A stretch of 34,222 nucleotides of DNA from Anaerolineales bacterium. GTDB taxonomy: Bacteria; Chloroflexota; Anaerolineae; Anaerolineales; UBA11858. The stretch's first letter is position 1, and each line of letters begins with the position of its first letter. Shown piece after piece: positions 10,357 through 19,499 of this stretch. A program made the position numbers and the translations under genes. Under the pieces are notes generated by a model. That model was not told where the DNA came from, made no database searches, and worked only from the letters and a program-made list of their open reading frames with translations. The stretch spans positions 1-34,222 of the forward strand of contig JADHXE010000011.1 of assembly GCA_016783125.1 (NCBI GenBank), in the 5' to 3' direction.

Positions 10357-11382
10357 TTACAAGGGCAATAACTCATCAAGCGAACGCCCGGCTTGGTATT
10401 GGAACTCCTCCGCCAACTGCGTCTGGATGTGATTGAAGATGATCGTCAGGGGCAGGTGTTGCGGGCAGGACTGTTCGCAGATGCCGCAGCCTGAGCAGGA
10501 AATCATCCAGCGCATGATGTCGGATTTTTGGTATTGGCCATCTTCGTCACGCCGGGGATAGTGGATATCACACAGGGGACAAACATTCAAGCAGGTTGAG
10601 CAATCCCCGCAGCTCTCAAGCTGGTCGATCAGCGCTTCTACATTTTCTGGCAGCAGCTCGGCCAACCCATTGGCGATGCGCTCGCGGGTGTTCTCACTGC
10701 GCTGCACGAGACGGGATGCGACACGCCGATGACCTTCTAACAACTCGGCATCGATCTCAGTTTCTGCATGCTCAGAAAGTTTGAGTTTCTCAGCCACAGT
10801 ATCATCGCTGATGGTAATCAGCGCGTGCTGTCGGACTGGCAGCCCGAGAATACCAATATTGATGTCGGCGGCGGTGGCTTCGGGTGAGATGCATACCTGG
10901 CAGGCGGAACGATAACGGTAGCGCACGATGCCGCCTTGACGGCTGAACTGCAGCGCTTCCTGGGTGAGACCTTTGGGTGAGCCTTTGCGTTCTGCCCGCC
11001 ACTGATATTCATCCATGGGCAATGTGCCTAAGCAATCAACACCCAGGGTTAGTAAGTTCTCTGTATCGAAACCGTTTTGTTTAGTCATCTCGATGAGCGT
11101 GCGCATTTCACAAGGCCGCAGCATAGCGCCAACTTTAGGGGAATCTCCCTCAACCAGATCGAGGATCAACTTGGCGGCGTTGATGGGCATTAGCGGAGCG
11201 AAGGGATTCAGAGATGTCAGTTCCTCAGGATCATCGATCAGGCGCGGCCCAGTGTCATCTATGTGTCCATTCATGGGCACCAGCATGCGCTCAAAATCAA
11301 AAGCCTGCCAGACCGTTTTTACGAATCCTCGCACAGTCCCCAGCGGATCACCGTGAGTTTTTATCATCCACTGTGTGCTCAT
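10357..11382 (-). CDS. FrhB/FdhB-like protein with two C-terminal [4Fe-4S] sites
   Basis: A 341-residue soluble Fe-S protein. The N-terminal two thirds resemble the F420-hydrogenase/formate-dehydrogenase beta-subunit family (FrhB/FdhB), including the RPCEMR motif (Cys91), DCLG (Cys117) and a CQVC pair (161/164). The C-terminus carries two ferredoxin-like cysteine sets: CGDCSTCLNVCPLC (258-271) and CSGCGICEQSCPQH (296-306). In this family the N-terminal part binds flavin and moves electrons between F420, NAD(P)H or ferredoxin and Fe-S partners; which donor is used here is unknown. The start ATG has an excellent GGAGGT upstream. It is the last gene of the cytochrome b6/Rieske/HdrDE-like operon, separated from the HdrDE-like gene by a 134-base spacer filled with heptamer repeats. 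It likely docks with that protein. Confidence 0.8.
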   Translation of the reverse strand: MSTQWMIKTHGDPLGTVRGFVKTVWQAFDFERMLVPMNGHIDDTGPRLIDDPEELTSLNPFAPLMPINAAKLILDLVEGDSPKVGAMLRPCEMRTLIEMTKQNGFDTENLLTLGVDCLGTLPMDEYQWRAERKGSPKGLTQEALQFSRQGGIVRYRYRSACQVCISPEATAADINIGILGLPVRQHALITISDDTVAEKLKLSEHAETEIDAELLEGHRRVASRLVQRSENTRERIANGLAELLPENVEALIDQLESCGDCSTCLNVCPLCDIHYPRRDEDGQYQKSDIMRWMISCSGCGICEQSCPQHLPLTIIFNHIQTQLAEEFQYQAGRSLDELLPL

Positions 11383-11397
11383 CGAGTACCTCCGGTT

Positions 11398-11512
11398 TGG
11401 ATATTGGATATTAGGTATTGGGTATTAGGTATTAGGTATTGGGCGGAGATCAATTCAAAACCAATATCTAATCTCTAATATCCAATATCTAACCTCCAGC
11501 TTCCAGCTTCCA
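11398..11512. repeat. Heptamer repeat array with inverted arms
   Basis: One side is a tandem of 7-base units (ATTAGGT, ATTGGGT, ATTAGGT, ATTAGGT). The other side carries the complementary form (CCAATATCTAATCTCTAATA), so the whole can fold back on itself. It fills the spacer between the last two genes of the respiratory operon. It ends with a CCAGCTTCCAGCTTCCAACC tandem. Confidence 0.75.
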
Positions 11513-11516
11513 ACCT

Positions 11517-13421
11517 CTACTCACCAATCTGCTTTTCCAATATCTCAGCGATATCCATCACCTGAATTTGCTCGCCCATACCTTTGGAACTGATGGCGTC
11601 TTCGAGCATGATCGTGCAGTAAGGGCAGGCTGTGGCGACGACCTCGGCTTCGACATCCAGGGCATCTTGTAAGCGGCGGTTATTGATACGTTTATCCGCC
11701 TCGGTTTCCTGCCACATCATGCCGCCGCCGCCACCGCAGCAGAAACTATTATCAGCGCTGCTTTTCATTTCTACTCGATGGGTTTGGGCCTGGTCTAAAA
11801 GAGCGCGGGGGGAATCGTAGATATCGTTGTGGCGGCCCAGGTAGCAAGGATCATGATAGGTTATTTTCCCAGCGATGCCACTGCCGTTGGCTGATCCGAG
11901 ATCGAGTTTGGATGAAATTTCTGCCAGGAGCTCCGTGGAGTGCTGCACGATATAATCGCCGCCCATCTGCGGATATTCATTTTTGAGGGTGTTGTAGCCA
12001 TGGGCGCATTGCGTCACGATACGTTTGAATTTGATCTGCTCGAAAGCCTCGATGTTTTGCTCAGCGAAGACCTGGAAGATGTATTCATGGCCCATACGCC
12101 GGGCGGTTTCGCCGCAGCAGCTTTCATCATGGCCCAGTACGCCAAAATCGATGCCCGCTTTACTCATCAATTTGACGAAAGCGTGAGTTGCTTTCTTGTT
12201 GCGATCATCGAAAGATGCCGCACAGCCGACAAAATAGAGCACATCCACTTCGTCACCGGGGGCTAGTTCGCGCACGTCTAGACCTTCGGCCCAGGCCATG
12301 CGGTCTTGGGGAGGCATACCCCAGGGGTTGCCCTGGCGCTCCATGTTGCGCAGGGTGTCGCCGATAGGTTTGGGCATCTCGCCGGTCATCAGAATCGCGT
12401 GGCGGCGGATGTCGATGACGCGTTCCGGGGGGCGGATAAAGGCTGGACAGACTATCAGGCAGGCTCCGCAGGTGGTGCATGACCACAAGGCTTCATTCTC
12501 GAAGAGATGGGCGGGCAGCTCTTTCGTGGAGCCGTTCCCGTTCCCGCTGGGGGTGCCCAGGGTGTCTATCATGGCATCGCGCAGCTGCATGAGCAGGGTT
12601 TTGGGCGAATAAGCCATGCCGCTCTGGGTGGCCGGGCAGACATCTTCGCAGCGTCCACAGCGCAGACAGGCGTCGAACTCCAGTAGGTTCTGTGGTATGA
12701 ACTCGGTGATCTTGCCAACCCCGAGAACTTCGGCGGTCTCCAGATCTTCGACTTTGGTCAGCGCGCCGTAAGCGCGGCGGGGGTGCAGGATGATGTTCAA
12801 AGGGGCATTGACCAGATGGCGCAGCTTGGTGAAGGGGATGCAGGCTGCAAAGGTCAGCGCTAGAAAAATGTGGATCAGCACTAAAATGGGGTGGAGGCTG
12901 AACGCCGTTTCGGGTGTGAGGCCTGTTGAAGTCAGCCATCTGGCTAGAGCATTGCCTACAAAAGAATACCGCGCCCATTCTGGTGCAGCTGTGATCAAGC
13001 GCATCGATTCGGTGAAGAAGCCGGCGATGGGCAACAAGGTTAGCATGATCAGGGCATAATAATCGTCCCATTGGGTGGGCAGGCTCTTTGGACGCAGTAC
13101 CAGCCTCCGGAAAGCAGCCATCAACCCCCCCCCCAGGATGAACAGCCCTGCCAAATCCATAATGAACTCGTAGGCGAAGTACAGGTTCTCCCGGGGAAAA
13201 TTCTCCAAAGCAAAAGGTGTAAAAAGGGCCATCTGCATCAGGTTGATGGCTGTGCCCACAACCTGGATGGTCACGCCCCAGAAGATCAACAGGTGCATGA
13301 TCCCAGGGTAGGCTTTTTTCAAGATGCGAACCTGGCCGATGGCATGAACGAAGAAATCCCGCACGGCAGTGGGCCACTGTTTACTGTTCACTGATAACTG
13401 ATTACTGGTTGCTGTGCTCAT
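11517..13421 (-). CDS. HdrDE-like membrane Fe-S oxidoreductase (cytochrome b + CCG fusion)
   Basis: A 634-residue fusion. Residues 40-200 form about five membrane helices like nitrate-reductase gamma or HdrE heme-b subunits, with candidate ligands in IMHLL (H43) and SLHPILVLIHIF (H177, H184). A pair of ferredoxin sites follows (CLRCGRCEDVC 252-262; CTTCGACLIVC 315-325). Two CCG domains come next: C400, CC435-436, C472; and C526, CC561-562, CPYC 599-602. In the first CCG domain the usual final CxxC reads CAHG, so one Cys is missing. This is the arrangement of HdrD/HdrE, DsrK/DsrM and related menaquinone-thiol oxidoreductases; the substrate is not known. The start overlaps the Rieske stop (ATGA), implying coupling. 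Residues 5-16 are encoded by a heptamer array, so the original start may have been altered. Confidence 0.85.
   Translation of the reverse strand: MSTATSNQLSVNSKQWPTAVRDFFVHAIGQVRILKKAYPGIMHLLIFWGVTIQVVGTAINLMQMALFTPFALENFPRENLYFAYEFIMDLAGLFILGGGLMAAFRRLVLRPKSLPTQWDDYYALIMLTLLPIAGFFTESMRLITAAPEWARYSFVGNALARWLTSTGLTPETAFSLHPILVLIHIFLALTFAACIPFTKLRHLVNAPLNIILHPRRAYGALTKVEDLETAEVLGVGKITEFIPQNLLEFDACLRCGRCEDVCPATQSGMAYSPKTLLMQLRDAMIDTLGTPSGNGNGSTKELPAHLFENEALWSCTTCGACLIVCPAFIRPPERVIDIRRHAILMTGEMPKPIGDTLRNMERQGNPWGMPPQDRMAWAEGLDVRELAPGDEVDVLYFVGCAASFDDRNKKATHAFVKLMSKAGIDFGVLGHDESCCGETARRMGHEYIFQVFAEQNIEAFEQIKFKRIVTQCAHGYNTLKNEYPQMGGDYIVQHSTELLAEISSKLDLGSANGSGIAGKITYHDPCYLGRHNDIYDSPRALLDQAQTHRVEMKSSADNSFCCGGGGGMMWQETEADKRINNRRLQDALDVEAEVVATACPYCTIMLEDAISSKGMGEQIQVMDIAEILEKQIGE
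13373..13407. repeat. Five-unit heptamer array inside coding sequence
   Basis: On the minus strand it reads CAGTAAT, CAGTTAT, CAGTGAA, CAGTAAA, CAGTGGC: five units of the CAGTNNN type. It is translated as residues NQLSVNSKQW near the N-terminus of the HdrDE-like protein. Confidence 0.8.
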
Positions 13422-13858
13422 GACTCGTCTCCAGCGCTGACGTAGATGTCGCCATCTCTGATTTCGGTTTGAAAGGGGGTAAGCCCTTTGGGAGGCGGCC
13501 CGGAAATTACGCTACCATCGGAGGGGTCGAAATAGCCATCGTGGCAGGGGCAGATGATCTGCTCTTTTTCGGCATCCCATTTGCAGATGCAGGCGAAGTG
13601 GGTGCAGACCGCGGAATAGGCCTTTAGCCCGGCGGCGGTGTTGATCACCAGGGCCGGATAGCGCCCAAACGAAACCGTCCGAGAGCTGCCAACGGTCAAT
13701 TCGGATTCGGATGCCACAAGTACAGGCTCGGCGGGGGTTTCTTCCAGCTTGGGTGGATAGAAATAGGCCAAGACGGGGCCAAATACGGCGGCCAGGCCGG
13801 TAGCAGCCAGGACGCGGTTGACGATCTTCAGAAAGTCACGTCGGGTTACTTTACTCAT
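13418..13858 (-). CDS. Rieske [2Fe-2S] protein
   Basis: A 146-residue Rieske protein of a cytochrome bc/b6f-type complex. The N-terminus has a Tat-like motif (TRRDFLK) followed by one hydrophobic segment that anchors it. The cluster motifs are complete: C85-T-H87 and C103-P-C105-H106 supply the two Cys and two His ligands, while C90 and C105 can form the usual disulfide. The ORF track begins at 13879, but the Met at 13858 is preceded by GGAGAGGTGAG at proper spacing and puts the Tat motif at the N-terminus, so I use it. It lies immediately after the subunit IV stop, and its own stop overlaps the HdrDE-like start by four bases. It should accept electrons from menaquinol at the Qo site and pass them to a c-type heme. 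Confidence 0.95.
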   Translation of the reverse strand: MSKVTRRDFLKIVNRVLAATGLAAVFGPVLAYFYPPKLEETPAEPVLVASESELTVGSSRTVSFGRYPALVINTAAGLKAYSAVCTHFACICKWDAEKEQIICPCHDGYFDPSDGSVISGPPPKGLTPFQTEIRDGDIYVSAGDES

Positions 13859-13860
13859 GG

Positions 13861-14262
13861 CTAACTCACCTCTCCCCAAACGGTCAGGGCGATCAGGATG
13901 ACCATCAGAGCGCTAATCACAATGAAGCGCACGCGGGCTGTTTTCTTGGATTTATCGGGTTTGCTATCCAAGAAGGGCCAGATCATGACAATGCCTGCAA
14001 AAATCACCGGCAGAACCGCGCCGGTCGTTTTTGGTAGATATTTGATGATCTGGTACAAAGCCAGGAAGTACCATTCTGGTTTGACGTGGGCGGGCGTGTT
14101 CAAGGGGTCAGCGGGTGGCTGCAGACCCACCGGATTGAACAGGCCAATGATCCCGATGATCACCAATAAGATACCAAAGCCGAGGGCGACCTTGGCTTCG
14201 TTGGTTGCATGATCGGGGTAGAAGGGGATGGGGTTTTCTTCGGGAGATATGTTTTCAGACAT
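13861..14262 (-). CDS. Cytochrome b C-terminal subunit (subunit IV / PetD-like)
   Basis: A 133-residue membrane protein with three hydrophobic segments (about 25-42, 78-95 and 111-129), corresponding to the C-terminal part of cytochrome b. It carries the Qo-site signature PEWYFL at residues 62-67, the key element for quinol binding and oxidation. Splitting cytochrome b into b6 and subunit IV is the b6f-type arrangement. The start ATG has GGAGA six bases upstream. The gene lies between the b6 gene (across a 105-base repeat-filled spacer) and the Rieske gene (practically abutting), consistent with a single complex. Confidence 0.92.
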   Translation of the reverse strand: MSENISPEENPIPFYPDHATNEAKVALGFGILLVIIGIIGLFNPVGLQPPADPLNTPAHVKPEWYFLALYQIIKYLPKTTGAVLPVIFAGIVMIWPFLDSKPDKSKKTARVRFIVISALMVILIALTVWGEVS

Positions 14263-14277
14263 GGTTTTTCTCCGGAT

Positions 14278-14367
14278 AGTTGATTAGGTATTGGGTGGCT
14301 AGGTATCAGGTATTGGGTATTAGGTTGGGAATAAACCTAATTACCTGATACCGGATTACCTGATTAC
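14278..14367. repeat. Heptamer-type repeat array with inverted arms
   Basis: Units such as GATTAGGT, ATTGGGT, ATCAGGT and ATTAGGT on one side, and the complementary CCTAATTACCTGATACC on the other. It fills the spacer between the b6 and subunit IV genes and can fold into a long imperfect hairpin. Confidence 0.7.
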
Positions 14368-15423
14368 CTAAAGTGGTTTCATAACGCCCTGGCGACGCAC
14401 CATGATGAAGTGCATCCCCATGAAGGTCACAGTAGCCAATGGGATGACCAGGACGTGCAAGGCGTAGAATCGGCTGAGGGTCTGTGCGCCGATATTCCAA
14501 CCCACGCGCAGGAAGACCAGGGCCAGATTTCCAATGGCCGGCATGCTCCCAGCGATCTCGGTAGCGACGGTTGAGGCCCAATAAGCCCGCTGGTCCCAGG
14601 GGAGCAGGTAGCCGGTCAGGCCGAAGGCCAGCGTCAGCACCAGCAAGGTGACTCCGCTGACCCAGTTGAGCTCGCGCGGTTTTCTATACGCTCCCATGAT
14701 GAATACGCGCAGCATATGGGCGGTACACATGACGATCATGCCGTTGGAAGACCAATGATGGATCATGCGGATAGCCGCCCCGAAACGCACCTCGGTTTCG
14801 ATGAACTGAATGCTGGCATAGGCGGCCTCCGGGGTGGGCTGGTAATAGAAGGCCAGCATAATGCCGGTGATGCCTTGCATGACGAACAGGAAGGCGGTGA
14901 TGCCGCCCAGGCAGTACCACCAGCGCCGCTGCCAATCGGGGACGGGTTTGGCGAGCATCTTAGAGAGCGGATCGGAGATTTCGTAACGCTCGTCGATCCA
15001 CTCACCGACGCGGGCCAGGATTGGCTTCCAGGGAGCGCGGGTCTTCCACATGCTGGCGCTTTGGACGATCCCGAAGACGAGGATCAGCCCGGCAGTGCCA
15101 AAGATGACCCAGCGAGCTAAAGGAGTCCAGAGACCTTTCTCCTCCCCGGCGATGTGGCAGTGTAAGCAGGGGTCTTGCTTGGGGGGCGGCGGCAAGCCGG
15201 GCAGGCTGGACGAGATAGCCGGGACGGCCAGTACTGCATCTGAAGATGCATCTGTAGGTGCGTCCGAAGAATCTCCTGACGGCAGCCCGGCGCTCTGCCG
15301 GGCCAGTTCCCAGTTAGGCTCAGTGGCCCTGGCCTGGCTCTGGTGGGCGAAGAGCAATAGCAGCGCGGTCACCAGTACAAAGGCCACAAGGCCTAGAAGA
15401 ATTCGGCGATAAAGTAGTTTCAT
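14368..15423 (-). CDS. Cytochrome b6-like protein with N-terminal c-type heme site
   Basis: A 351-residue fusion. Order: signal or anchor helix (residues 8-26); an exported Ser/Ala/Asp- and Pro-rich linker; a single heme c motif CLHCH (86-90); a membrane helix (103-122); then cytochrome b6. The heme b ligand pairs are H222/H236 and H323/H338. Spacings of 14 and 15 match the b6-type rather than the bc1-type protein. The conserved GYLLPWDQRAYWA segment is present. Its job is the quinol-oxidising cytochrome b of the complex formed with subunit IV and Rieske; the attached c heme would act as built-in electron acceptor in place of cytochrome f or c1. No separate cytochrome f/c1 gene is in this operon. 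The start ATG has GAGGTGA upstream. First gene of the operon, with a CRP-like palindrome about 60 bases ahead. Confidence 0.92.
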   Translation of the reverse strand: MKLLYRRILLGLVAFVLVTALLLLFAHQSQARATEPNWELARQSAGLPSGDSSDAPTDASSDAVLAVPAISSSLPGLPPPPKQDPCLHCHIAGEEKGLWTPLARWVIFGTAGLILVFGIVQSASMWKTRAPWKPILARVGEWIDERYEISDPLSKMLAKPVPDWQRRWWYCLGGITAFLFVMQGITGIMLAFYYQPTPEAAYASIQFIETEVRFGAAIRMIHHWSSNGMIVMCTAHMLRVFIMGAYRKPRELNWVSGVTLLVLTLAFGLTGYLLPWDQRAYWASTVATEIAGSMPAIGNLALVFLRVGWNIGAQTLSRFYALHVLVIPLATVTFMGMHFIMVRRQGVMKPL

Positions 15424-15498: not shown

Positions 15499-15617
15499 AT
15501 TACAGCATATAAGAAATATGCAGATAGAGCAATATCGGAAGTCTGAAATGAGATCGGGTGTTAACCTTATTTTTTTGGAATATCCACCCTAGAGGGAACA
15601 CACTCCCCCAGGATTGG

Positions 15618-15769
15618 CAGGGTTGTTCAGTTCTACCTGGACAATCGAATAAATTCGAAGCTGGCTTGCAAAATCCACCTGCGTGGATTGGGTTATCAAC
15701 CGACGCAGGTCGGTTTCGCAAGCCAGAATCGATTTCAATCGATTTGGTGCTTAGAACTGAACAGCCCTG
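15618..15769. mobile_element. MITE-like element with 18-bp terminal inverted repeats and 10-bp direct repeats
   Basis: Termini CAGGGTTGTTCAGTTCTA and TAGAACTGAACAGCCCTG are inverted copies with one mismatch. The element is flanked on both sides by the direct repeat CCAGGATTGG (15608-15617 and 15770-15779), which looks like a target-site duplication. Inside, CTGGCTTGC (15661) pairs with GCAAGCCAG (15718), enclosing two hairpins whose six-base loops (CCTGCG and CGCAGG) are exact complements. No transposase is encoded, so it would be non-autonomous. Confidence 0.65.
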
Positions 15770-15789
15770 CCAGGATTGGGGGTCATGCG

Positions 15790-15955
15790 AAACCTGCCTG
15801 GCCGGAGGCCCGCAAGGCGCGCAGGTTGAATTCCAGTCGCCGCGCTCGCTTTGCGCGCCTCTGGCGTGCGGGCCTTTGGCCAGGGCGACTTCGCAAATGT
15901 TGGTGCAGTTCCGCCTATGGCGTGCGCCCCTAAGGGGCAACTGCCGCATTATCCT
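15790..15955. repeat. G+C-rich inverted repeats
   Basis: CCTGGCC..GGCCCGCA near 15797 pairs imperfectly with TGCGGGCC..GGCCAGG near 15868-15885. Just after it, GCAGTT..GCGCCCC pairs with GGGGC..AACTGC (about 15905-15945). Together with the MITE-like element these fill the 647-base gene-free stretch 15424-16070. Several long ORFs of the track here only reflect the repeats. Confidence 0.55.
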
Positions 15956-16070: not shown

Positions 16071-16340
16071 ATGAAGCACGAAGAAGCGCTGCACCGATTG
16101 AAAAATGTTGAGGGGCACATCCGTGGTATCCAGCGGATGCTCGAAGAAGATAAATACTGTATTGATGTGATTCGCCAAATCCACGCCGCCCAGGCTGCCC
16201 TCAATAAGGTCAGTACCATGATCTTGGAAGGGCACTTGAATTCCTGCCTGATCACTGCCGTGCGCGGCGATGACCCGGATGACCGCGAGCGCGTACTTCA
16301 GGAGATCATCGACGTCTTTGAGGCGGCGACGAAAGTGTAG
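16071..16340 (+). CDS. csoR: CsoR-family Cu(I)-sensing repressor
   Basis: An 89-residue all-helical repressor. The Cu(I) ligand set of copper-type CsoR proteins is complete: Cys30 (YCIDVI), His55 and Cys59 (HLNSC). The N-terminal region RLKNVEGHIRGIQRML is the conserved DNA-contacting helix. In this family apo-protein binds the G-tract operator and Cu(I) binding releases it. It is the first gene of a five-gene copper operon, preceded by a matching operator and consensus promoter. The start ATG follows GGAGG at somewhat long spacing (AGGAGGCCGCCACG). The intact Cys/His/Cys pattern distinguishes it from RcnR (nickel/cobalt) and formaldehyde-sensing FrmR relatives, so copper is the confident assignment. 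Confidence 0.93.
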   Translation: MKHEEALHRLKNVEGHIRGIQRMLEEDKYCIDVIRQIHAAQAALNKVSTMILEGHLNSCLITAVRGDDPDDRERVLQEIIDVFEAATKV

Positions 16341-16349
16341 AAGGTAACT

Positions 16350-16438
16350 GGTGAATTAGTAAATTGGTAGATTGGTAGATTGGTAAATGGTTTCCTCGAA
16401 CCAATCTACCAATCTACCAATTTACCAATCTACCAATC
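16350..16438. repeat. 8-bp-period repeat array with inverted arms
   Basis: Units AAATTGGT, AGATTGGT, AGATTGGT on the left; CCAATCTA, CCAATCTA, CCAATTTA, CCAATCTA on the right; loop TTTCCTCGAA. It forms a long hairpin between csoR and the copZ-like gene and might modulate distal expression of the operon. Confidence 0.75.
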
Positions 16439-16469
16439 AAATAATATCCAAACTAAAGGAGTAACCCAC

Positions 16470-16676
16470 ATGACAACTGTAACTTACAACATCCCTGGTA
16501 TCAATTGTGGACACTGCGAGCACACCATCAAGATGGAAGTTGGCGATCTTGAAGGTGTGCAATCCGTTGAAGCCAGTTCGGAAAGCAAGACAGCCACAGT
16601 CGCCTTCGATGCGCCTGCCACTGAGCAAGGCATCAAGGATCTCTTGGCTGAAATCAACTACCCGGCTGTAAATTAG
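16470..16676 (+). CDS. copZ: CopZ-like copper chaperone (HMA domain)
   Basis: A 68-residue heavy-metal-associated domain with the metal-binding motif GINCGHCEHTI (CxxC) in the first loop and the beta-alpha-beta-beta-alpha-beta length typical of free-standing chaperones. The track starts at 16380 inside the repeat array; the ATG at 16470 has AAAGGAG at correct spacing and starts the domain directly. Expected to bind Cu(I) in the cytoplasm and pass it to the N-terminal domain of CopA, encoded 340 bases downstream, or to CsoR. The motif has His between the Cys residues (CGHC), a common variant. A mercury or zinc chaperone role is possible in principle, but CsoR and CopA in the same operon favour copper. 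Confidence 0.88.
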   Translation: MTTVTYNIPGINCGHCEHTIKMEVGDLEGVQSVEASSESKTATVAFDAPATEQGIKDLLAEINYPAVN

Positions 16677-16758
16677 TATTTTCAAATCAATCAACGTGCA
16701 GGGGTGTTGATGAGCAACACCCCCCCGCATGTTCTTATCGGTAATAAAGGAGTCCAAT

Positions 16759-17013
16759 ATGTGGTTCAATCATGGTTATGAATTTGGTTGGGGCGGCATG
16801 ATTTTCGGTGGGTTGATGATGCTGGTGTTTTGGGGTGGGTTAATTGCACTCATCTTTTGGGGAGTGCGATCTCTCATGTCGAGTAAAAACTATCCCCAAA
16901 CGGATACTCCCGAGCGAGTCCTGAGCGCCCTCGAGATTTTAGATCAGCGCTACGCGCAGGGCGAGATCAATCGAGATGAATATGCAGCGATAAAAGGGGA
17001 TATAGCCCACTGA
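16759..17013 (+). CDS. Small SHOCT-domain membrane protein
   Basis: An 84-residue protein: a Gly/Met/Phe-rich N-terminal membrane helix (about residues 12-38), a short linker, and a C-terminal SHOCT motif ([26 protein letters not shown]). The ATG at 16759 has AAAGGAG upstream, so I use it instead of the track start at 16729. The stop overlaps the copA start (TGATG), so the two are translationally coupled. Such proteins often accompany copper or heavy-metal efflux genes; SHOCT helices are thought to mediate oligomerisation or membrane-associated interaction. The molecular role here is not known. Confidence 0.85.
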
Positions 17014-19499
17014 TGTCCGATACAAAACAACTTACGTTGCCAATCACTGGCATGACCTGCGCCAATTGCGTCGCCGCCGTGGAACGTAATATCAAGAAGG
17101 TGGATGGTGTGCAGGTGGCAAATGTCAACCTATCCTCCGAGCGGGCCACGATTGAGTTTGATCCCGACCAAACAGGGCTGGGCGATTTCATGGCCCGCAT
17201 CGAGCGCGCCGGCTATGGTATCGCTGCTGGTGAAGCGGATTTTATGATCCAGCGTATGAGCGATGATAATGATGCCCGTCGCTTGGAGAAAGCGTTGATG
17301 GCTGAAACTGGCGTCTTGGACGTCCAGGTCAGTTTTACCAGCGCGCGCGCGCATCTTGAATATATCCCTACTATTATCAGCCAGGCTGAATTGCGCGATG
17401 CTGTCAAAGCGGCCGGTTTTGATGTGGTCGTTCTGGGCGGAGATGCAGAGGACGCCGAGGCCCAGGCGCGCGATAGGGAAATTGCTGAACAACGGCACTT
17501 ACTGGTTGTCGGTTTACTGTTCACCGTTCCACTGTTTCTTTTTTCCATGGGCCGTGATTTTAGCTTTTTGCCTGCCTGGGCTCATCAGCCGTGGGCAACT
17601 TGGTTGATGTTTGCCCTGGCGACCCCGGTTCAATTCTATGTCGGTTGGCAATACTACGTAGGTGCATTCAAATCCCTGCGCAATCTTTCCGCCAATATGG
17701 ATGTCCTGATCGCCATGGGATCATCAGTGGCTTATTTCTACTCTATCTTCATCGTGCTTGGGCTGCTTCCCGGGCATGTGTACTTCGAGACTGCGGCAGT
17801 AATCATTACTTTGATCAAGGTCGGCAAGTTCCTGGAGGCGCGTGCCAAAGGGCGCACCAGCGAGGCGATCAAAAAATTGATGGGCTTGCGCGCCAAAACA
17901 GCCCGCGTTGTTCGAGATGGCGCCGAGATCGAGATTCCCGCCGATGATGTTGTGGTAGGCGATATGGTTATCGTTCGACCCGGAGAGAAAATCCCTGTCG
18001 ATGGCGTGGTGGTTGAAGGTCGCTCCTCGGTGGACGAATCGATGATCACAGGTGAGTCTCTACCTGTAGAGAAAGGCCCTGGAGATGCGCTGGTCGGCGC
18101 CACGCTCAACAAGCTGGGACGACTCAAATTAGAAGCCACCAAAGTTGGCAAAGAAACCGCCCTTTCGCAGATCATCCGTCTGGTGGAAGAAGCCCAGGGC
18201 AGCAAAGCCCCCATCCAGAAACTGGCAGATCAAGTTTCTTCGATCTTCGTTCCGGCGGTGATCTTGATTGCGGCAGCCACTTTTCTAGTCTGGTATTTTT
18301 TGATCCCCATGTCTCCAGGGGCTGAGATGAGTCTTTTCACGCGCGCCCTGATCAATATGGTCGCCGTATTAGTTATCGCCTGTCCCTGCGCGATGGGGTT
18401 GGCGACGCCGACTGCGGTCATGGTCGGTACCGGCAAGGGCGCTGAGATGGGCATCTTGCTCAAATCGAGTGAGGCTTTAGAGCGCGCCGGTCGATTGACT
18501 ACGGTGGTGCTGGATAAGACGGGTACGATCACCAAAGGGCAGCCGGCGGTTACTGATGTAGTGGTCAGTGAGCAGTGGACAGTGGGCAGTGATGATGAAT
18601 TGCTTCGGTTAGCCGCTTCTGTGGAGCAAGGTTCCGAGCATCCCCTGGGTGAAGCCATCTGGGCGGAGGCGGGCAACCGCTCCCTGAGTCTCAGCCAGCC
18701 CGAGGGTTTCAAAGCCCAAGTCGGCCATGGCGTAGAAGCGCAAGTTGATGGCCTTGAAGTGTTGGTTGGCAATATGCGCATGATGGAAGCTCGTCAGATG
18801 TCGCTCAATGCTCTGGAGGGCGAAGTAAGACGATTGCAGGCCGAAGCCAAGACGGCTATGTTGGTCGCTGTCGATGGACAGGTCTGTGGGGTGATCGCTG
18901 TAGCCGATACCGTCAAAGATGGTTCAATCGAGGCCATTGCTCAGTTGAGAGAAATGGGATTGCGCGTAGCCGTGATCACGGGAGATAATCAGCAGACCGC
19001 CGAAGCCATTGCTGCCCAGGTTGGCATCGATGATGTTTTAGCTGAAGTCCTGCCCGGCGACAAAGCCGCTGAAATCAAAAACCTACAGGGACTGGGAACA
19101 AGTGACCAGGGATCAGTCTCCGTCTCCCGTCCCCCGTCCTCGGTCATAGCTATGGTCGGCGACGGCATCAACGACGCCCCCGCCCTGGCCCAGGCCGACG
19201 TGGGTATTGCCATCGGCACTGGCACCGATGTTGCTATGGCTGCCGCGCCGGTTACCTTGATTAGCGGCGATCTGCGCGGTGTGCCTAAGGCAATTGCGCT
19301 TTCGCGCCGAACCCTGCGTACCATCAAACAGAATCTTTTCTGGGCTTTTTTCTACAATGTGATCCTGATCCCCGCCGCCGCTGCCGGATTCTTGAATCCC
19401 ATGCTGGCCGCGGGCGCTATGGCTTTTAGCAGTATTTTTGTTGTCAGCAACAGTTTGCGATTGCGACGCTATCGCATGAAAATTTGGAGGATGATTTGA
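17013..19499 (+). CDS. copA: Copper-exporting P1B-type ATPase
   Basis: An 828-residue Cu(I) pump. Order: metal-binding domain 1 with GMTCANC (C16, C19); a second HMA-like fold (about 75-145) that has lost its CxxC; eight membrane helices; actuator motif TGES; transport motif CPC (457-459); phosphorylated Asp501 in DKTGT; HP motif in GSEHPLGEA; hinge GDGINDAP (716-723). It exports cytoplasmic Cu(I) using ATP, fed by the CopZ-like chaperone. Two stretches look repeat-derived: residues about 519-527 are encoded by a CAGTNNN heptamer array, and residues about 694-710 ([17 protein letters not shown]) form an unusual insert just before the hinge. All catalytic motifs remain. The start overlaps the SHOCT gene and the stop overlaps the redoxin start. 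Confidence 0.95.
18566..18593. repeat. Four-unit heptamer array inside copA
   Basis: CAGTGAG, CAGTGGA, CAGTGGG, CAGTGAT: exactly four 7-base units of the same CAGTNNN type as in the HdrDE-like gene. It is translated within [12 protein letters not shown] in the linker after the phosphorylation site. Confidence 0.75.
19087..19143. repeat. Heptamer-type insert inside copA
   Basis: The right part is a 7-base tandem (CGTCTCC, CGTCCCC, CGTCCTC, GGTC). The left part has GGGACTGGGAACAAGTGACC, partly complementary in style. It encodes an insert before the GDGINDAP hinge that the usual family sequence lacks. Confidence 0.65.

Follow-up and report, generated by a model that had tools for sequence, protein, structure and literature searches.

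The window analysed here is a stretch of 34,222 nucleotides (positions 1-34222 of contig C47) from a draft genome of 4.33 Mb, which consists of 318 contigs and is 88% complete. Its relatives are Anaerolineae MAGs. Five genes lie on the minus strand between positions 10357 and 15423 (Table 1). They encode a cytochrome b6, a subunit IV, a Rieske protein, a membrane CCG protein and a soluble FrhB-like protein; the Pfam domains agree with an earlier note on this DNA, which had described five same-strand genes. The overlap reported there is also present, as the Rieske stop and the start of the CCG gene share four bases (ATGA, 13418-13421). The Rieske span is counted from the likely ATG at 13858; the ORF list has a TTG start at 13879.

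Table 1. Operon genes and neighbouring features in the window
Feature	Positions	Strand	Details
FrhB/FdhB-like soluble Fe-S protein	10357..11382	-	341 aa; Pfam FrhB_FdhB_C and Fer4
A+T-rich short tandem repeats, operon intergenic gap	11397-11495		
EtfD/EMR-like membrane CCG protein	11517..13421	-	634 aa; Pfam Nitrate_red_gam, Fer4 and two CCG
Rieske [2Fe-2S] protein	13418..13858	-	Pfam Rieske, E 4e-11; CTHFAC...CPCHDG ligand boxes; Tat-like N-terminal anchor
Subunit IV (petD-like)	13861..14262	-	133 aa; Pfam Cytochrom_B_C, E 1e-16; PEWY Qo-site motif
A+T-rich short tandem repeats, operon intergenic gap	14283-14372		
Cytochrome b6 with N-terminal TM, CxxCH, TM extension	14368..15423	-	351 aa; Pfam Cytochrome_B, E 2e-51
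CLHCH motif, b6 residues 86-90	15154..15168	-	C86, L87, C89 and H90 invariant; predicted to bind heme c covalently at the p-side
Nested imperfect inverted repeats upstream of b6	15605-15895		Arms of 31-48 nt; resemble a miniature mobile element
CsoR-like metal-sensing repressor	~16071-16340	-	Pfam Trns_repr_metal
Heavy-metal-binding protein and CopA-type P-ATPase	16380-19499	+	

One of the repeat units, CCTAATACC, has three exact copies in the window where 0.15 would be expected. Beside the operon, the CsoR-like gene makes up a copper/metal resistance locus together with the neighbouring genes for the heavy-metal-binding protein and the CopA-type P-ATPase.

To assess whether the linkage is conserved, the CCG protein served as query in a scan of the GTDB genome collection, and the loci were then searched by tblastn with all five proteins. 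The b6, petD, Rieske and CCG genes are found in the same order in 28 other Anaerolineae genomes: 17 loci from tblastn (all Chloroflexota), ten genomes from the stretches of relatives, and G335, which is counted on gene order and ORF size. In three of the 28 (L167, L168 and L169) the contig stops within the CCG gene. The order is fixed across divergence down to about 48% identity. The linkage is thus not due to chance, and it is not confined to this genome; such confinement was the outcome that the earlier note had named as refuting its proposal.

The FrhB-like gene is the next gene in 19 of the 25 loci that could be judged. Six genomes with an intact operon (L012, L014, L018 and L160-L162) contain no FrhB of this kind, either at the locus or genome-wide; consequently, the protein is not an obligate subunit. 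Since the deepest members, L163 and L164, carry the gene, its absence elsewhere would most simply be explained by loss.

No bc genes lie near the CCG homologues at 38% identity or less, which occur in Acidobacteriota, Myxococcota and other Chloroflexota. In a quick tree the b6-linked proteins group as a single clade (support 100*) and, judged on their sequences, have a single origin. The other outcome that the earlier note had named as refuting, homologous Hdr-like pairs lying mostly with unrelated complexes, is seen to the extent that EMR proteins outside the clade are found away from bc genes; these proteins are separate from the b6-linked clade. Four members (L015, L016, L017 and L026) have lost petD, Rieske and FrhB; a degenerate b6 is still located directly upstream of the EtfD-like gene. 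L032 was considered as a soluble EtfD-like variant lacking b6, and was rejected as the run of N just upstream is an assembly gap.

Three relatives of the window from the same genus (L009, L010 and L012) have genes for [NiFe] hydrogenase subunits, an FlpD/MvhD protein and a HycI protease on the same strand, upstream of b6; in L010 and L012 an HdrA-like protein is also encoded there. This hydrogenase-type set is absent from the window.

In the CCG protein, two [4Fe-4S] sites and two CCG domains are fused to a NarI-like cytochrome b domain in a single chain. Its best solved relative is M. smegmatis EtfD (PDB 9OJN), matched at E 3e-133 by the clade profile; query residues 11-287 and 299-629 align colinearly with it. 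The heme b ligands H43 and H202 correspond to EtfD H78 and H241, both cubane sites are complete (eight Cys), and the D2 site is full (C526, C561, C562, C599 and C602, with capping H474). EtfD is an electron wire from ETF to menaquinone, which it reduces; its D2 cluster is rendered non-catalytic by the His cap (PMC13083937). By these sequence features the CCG protein is a member of the EtfD/EMR (ETF:menaquinone reductase) family.

The earlier note had called this protein HdrDE-like. HdrDE and DsrMK also pair a membrane cytochrome b with a CCG Fe-S protein, and some are quinone-linked; in HdrDE, however, HdrD and HdrE are separate and both CCG sites hold catalytic noncubane clusters, whereas here the two parts are fused and D2 is His-capped. 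An HdrDE or DsrMK identity is ruled out by the fusion, the D2 ligands and model scores far below the cut-off (46 of 400 bits for DsrK), and the match to EtfD places the protein in the EMR/EtfD type instead. The quinone-reducing role once proposed for the Hdr-like arm gains support from the homology to EtfD.

The D1 site differs between the b6-linked clade (C400, C435, C436, C472 and C475) and EtfD (C503, C538, T539, C581 and C584). All 21 other clade members have Cys436 at the position of EtfD Thr539, as in Hdr; canonical relatives mostly have Thr or Asn there, with one exception (L067). The linear D1 pattern of EtfD (C, C-Thr, C-P-H-C) is not found in the clade, which has Cys436 for Thr. Because this extra cysteine completes a five-cysteine site, the D1 cluster of the clade is predicted to be noncubane rather than linear. 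The five-cysteine CCG site of Hdr holds the catalytic noncubane cluster (PMC13083937).

Alone in the clade, the window copy has Gly at residue 475 (11997-11999) and reads CAHG rather than CPHC; the fourth D1 ligand is lost (C475G). This does not bar it from the family, since FadF is a member of the EtfD family and also lacks D1 (PMC13083937). The reading frame is intact. The CCG half of the window copy (~11517-12251) is unusually divergent, with about 70% identity to near and far clade members alike; in trees, the N-terminal half groups with L009 and L010, and the C-terminal half falls outside the supported L009-L013 group. Recombination, faster evolution after the loss of D1, or an assembly problem could account for this divergence.

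Unlike the known EtfD, EMR and FadF proteins (PDB 9OJN, PMC13083937), with which it shares the fused architecture and the heme, cubane and D2 ligands, the clade is joined to b6, petD and Rieske genes, and no ETF genes were found near its loci. Contig C117 of the window genome carries a further EMR-type gene, next to etfAB. Ordinary ETF is a possible donor to the b6-linked protein, with no etf gene linked to it and a separate EMR-etf locus in the same genome.

The b6, subunit IV and Rieske proteins have the hallmarks of a b6f-type complex. The split between b6 and subunit IV is the same; all four heme b histidines of b6 are kept (H222, H236, H323 and H338, invariant columns in 16 members); Cys171 lies at the heme c-i position of b6f complexes; and the PEWY motif and Rieske ligand boxes are in place. 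In contrast to such complexes, the operon contains an additional EtfD-like gene and none for cytochrome f or c1; b6 carries an N-terminal CxxCH instead. Two TM helices flank a C-L-x-C-H-I motif in its N-terminus, ahead of the b6 core. Every full-length clade member, the degenerate b6 copies among them, conserves C86, L87, C89 and H90. Among 400 sampled genomes of the phylum, only the window's own and G367 have this segment. It is short, no sixth heme ligand was identified, and the AlphaFold model of b6 (pLDDT 59) is too low in confidence to place it.

In the degenerate b6 of the four reduced members the c-i Cys and the whole helix-B region are gone, and a Tyr stands in for the last heme His; the CLHCH-TM part is still there. 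We take the persistence of this CLHCH-bearing remnant upstream of the EtfD-like gene as the strongest indirect sign of the EtfD-like protein working with the b6-derived heme c subunit.

The FrhB-like protein matches FdhB/FrhB in sequence and fold (model pLDDT 68), and FdhB (F420) is its nearest solved relative. Its Pfam FrhB_FdhB_C match scores above the cut-off. Four invariant cysteines (C91, C117, C161 and C164) align with FdhB cysteines, presumably the ligands of the flavin-proximal cluster. The earlier note had counted two [4Fe-4S] sites; these four residues, added to the two sites of the C-terminal domain, make three likely. Domain order, flavin-proximal Cys and a C-terminal dicluster domain as in FdhB are shared with the solved F420-reducing FrhB/FdhB subunits (PDB 7BKB, 8RVU and 4CI0). 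The flavin motifs are altered: where Frh has QDGG as its FAD pyrophosphate motif (PMC3930138), this protein has DPLG, and the second flavin loop is NPFxPLM. The flavin site is probably modified. The operon also differs in having no catalytic gene for a hydrogenase or formate dehydrogenase.

Many Anaerolineae encode relatives of the FrhB-like protein, singly or in tandem, next to acyl-CoA dehydrogenase or HdrA-like genes; an acyl-CoA dehydrogenase adjoins them in 7 of 27 short loci. Such neighbours support a role in electron transfer, not F420 specifically. The window genome encodes the F420 ligase CofE, as do 17 of 22 clade genomes. Across the class it is present in 80 of 150 genomes, or in 63 of 102 when only those of good quality are counted; these counts are not decisive for an enrichment of F420 in the clade.

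In Anaerolineae, operons at L132, L134 and L097-L103 combine HdrA-like flavoproteins and a ferredoxin-like protein with an acyl-CoA dehydrogenase and two FrhB-like proteins; in L132 a CCG protein is also present. They possibly represent an ETF-independent electron path from beta-oxidation.

The reading that we prefer, with a probability of about 0.5, is that the operon specifies a respiratory unit in the membrane in which two quinone modules are coupled, one for input and one for output. Electrons from a cytoplasmic carrier would enter the CCG/Fe-S wire of the EtfD-like protein and pass via heme b to menaquinone. The FrhB-like flavo-iron-sulfur protein would be the carrier-facing piece in most members and would have been lost in others. 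The b6/subunit IV/Rieske module would re-oxidise menaquinol by a Q-cycle; the high-potential electron would move from Rieske to the p-side heme c tethered at the b6 N-terminus, and from it to an oxidase or to acceptors in the periplasm. Homology underlies the assignment of the wire, of the quinone sites and of the Q-cycle; that the modules associate physically, in which direction electrons flow, that menaquinone is the carrier they share, and which donor and acceptor are used are what we infer.

Several features favour this coupled unit. The heme b, cubane and D2 ligands of the EtfD-like protein are complete, and EtfD reduces menaquinone. Gene order is kept in the 28 other genomes, with the 4-base overlap in the window. 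The heme b ligands, PEWY and the conserved N-terminal CxxCH are consistent with the output module. The EtfD-like proteins form one clade, in which a degenerate CxxCH-bearing b6 can remain beside them. The genes near FrhB relatives, the lack of ETF genes near clade loci and the separate EMR-etfAB locus also argue for it. It is weakened by the six intact operons without FrhB, by C475G in the window copy, by the short CxxCH segment with no sixth heme ligand identified, and by the location of most EMR relatives away from bc genes. A further weakness is the patchy occurrence of heme-copper oxidases: no more than 16 of 28 clade genomes have one, and none was found in the incomplete MAG of the window. 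Such an oxidase is consequently not a universal acceptor, and acceptors probably differ among clade members.

In another account, the b6/Rieske complex and the EtfD-like quinone reductase are both of the ordinary kind, are co-expressed and remain separate, communicating via the quinone pool. This is possible, if on balance doubtful. Operons often group the enzymes of one pathway without physical contact, the known EtfD and bc complexes all act separately, and FrhB is freely gained or lost. Mere co-expression is harder to reconcile with a gene order fixed over deep divergence, with the clade-specific EtfD-like sequence, and with the degenerate b6 scaffold kept beside the EtfD-like gene. The coupled unit can also be given a named donor: as an F420H2:menaquinone oxidoreductase, the FrhB-like protein would oxidise F420H2 and the EtfD-like protein would pass the electrons to menaquinone. 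The nearest solved relative by both sequence and fold, FdhB (F420), and the distribution of CofE in clade genomes point in this direction. However, CofE is widespread in the class anyway, QDGG is replaced and the second flavin loop is NPFxPLM; like variant motifs in FrhB paralogs beside acyl-CoA dehydrogenases suggest a different partner. We therefore consider F420H2 an unlikely donor.

The flow could also run in reverse, with menaquinol oxidation in the b6/Rieske Q-cycle driving the EtfD/Hdr-like arm, so that electrons from the quinol pool would end on cytoplasmic ferredoxin, F420 or a disulfide. The five-cysteine D1 completed by Cys436 would suit this direction, as its Hdr equivalent is catalytic (PMC13083937), and so would the HdrA, FlpD and [NiFe] hydrogenase genes upstream of b6 in the same-genus relatives. 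Against this, the capping His474 of D2, non-catalytic in EtfD, is kept, the window copy has no fourth D1 ligand, and no disulfide-substrate enzyme is linked; reverse flow is accordingly quite improbable.

The linkage of b6/Rieske with an EtfD-like protein suggests a previously undescribed unit for electron input and output in one respiratory complex. The gene set is a new combination of known modules and not a categorically new system. A search of the literature, limited to open-licence papers, found no description of it. In Candidatus Methanoperedens, which has the same module classes within one organism, HdrDE, HdrABC-FrhB and an unusual Rieske/cytb complex are proposed to act on one menaquinone pool (PMC4683180). 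There, unlike here, the modules are encoded and proposed as separate complexes, and the Rieske/cytb cluster is described as lying with multiheme cytochromes rather than with Hdr or Frh genes.

The stronger claim, a stable supercomplex in which an EtfD-like reductase with an Hdr-type five-cysteine D1 is built onto a b6/Rieske complex with a tethered heme c, is only tentative; the five-cysteine D1 is a feature of the clade that is lost in the window copy. Such a supercomplex would link a carrier in the cytoplasm directly to a heme c on the p-side, the Q-cycle lying between the two, and would place electron entry and proton-translocating exit within one enzyme. As a rule, a quinone reducer and a cytochrome bc complex are different enzymes connected through a common quinone pool. 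The conserved operon that joins the two modules makes it possible to test, in a largely uncultured lineage, whether input and output have merged in one complex; the heme c motif fused to b6 and the lineages reduced to the heme c scaffold and the quinone reducer belong to this case. In addition, EtfD, the b6-linked clade and Hdr offer a natural series for studying how one cysteine shifts a linear [3Fe-4S] site towards an Hdr-like cluster.

In seven loci (L009, L010, L019, L022, L024, L025 and L130), though not in the window, a LuxR-type response regulator adjoins the operon, accompanied in several of them by a HisKA_3 kinase gene. This regulator may control the b6/EtfD-like operon.
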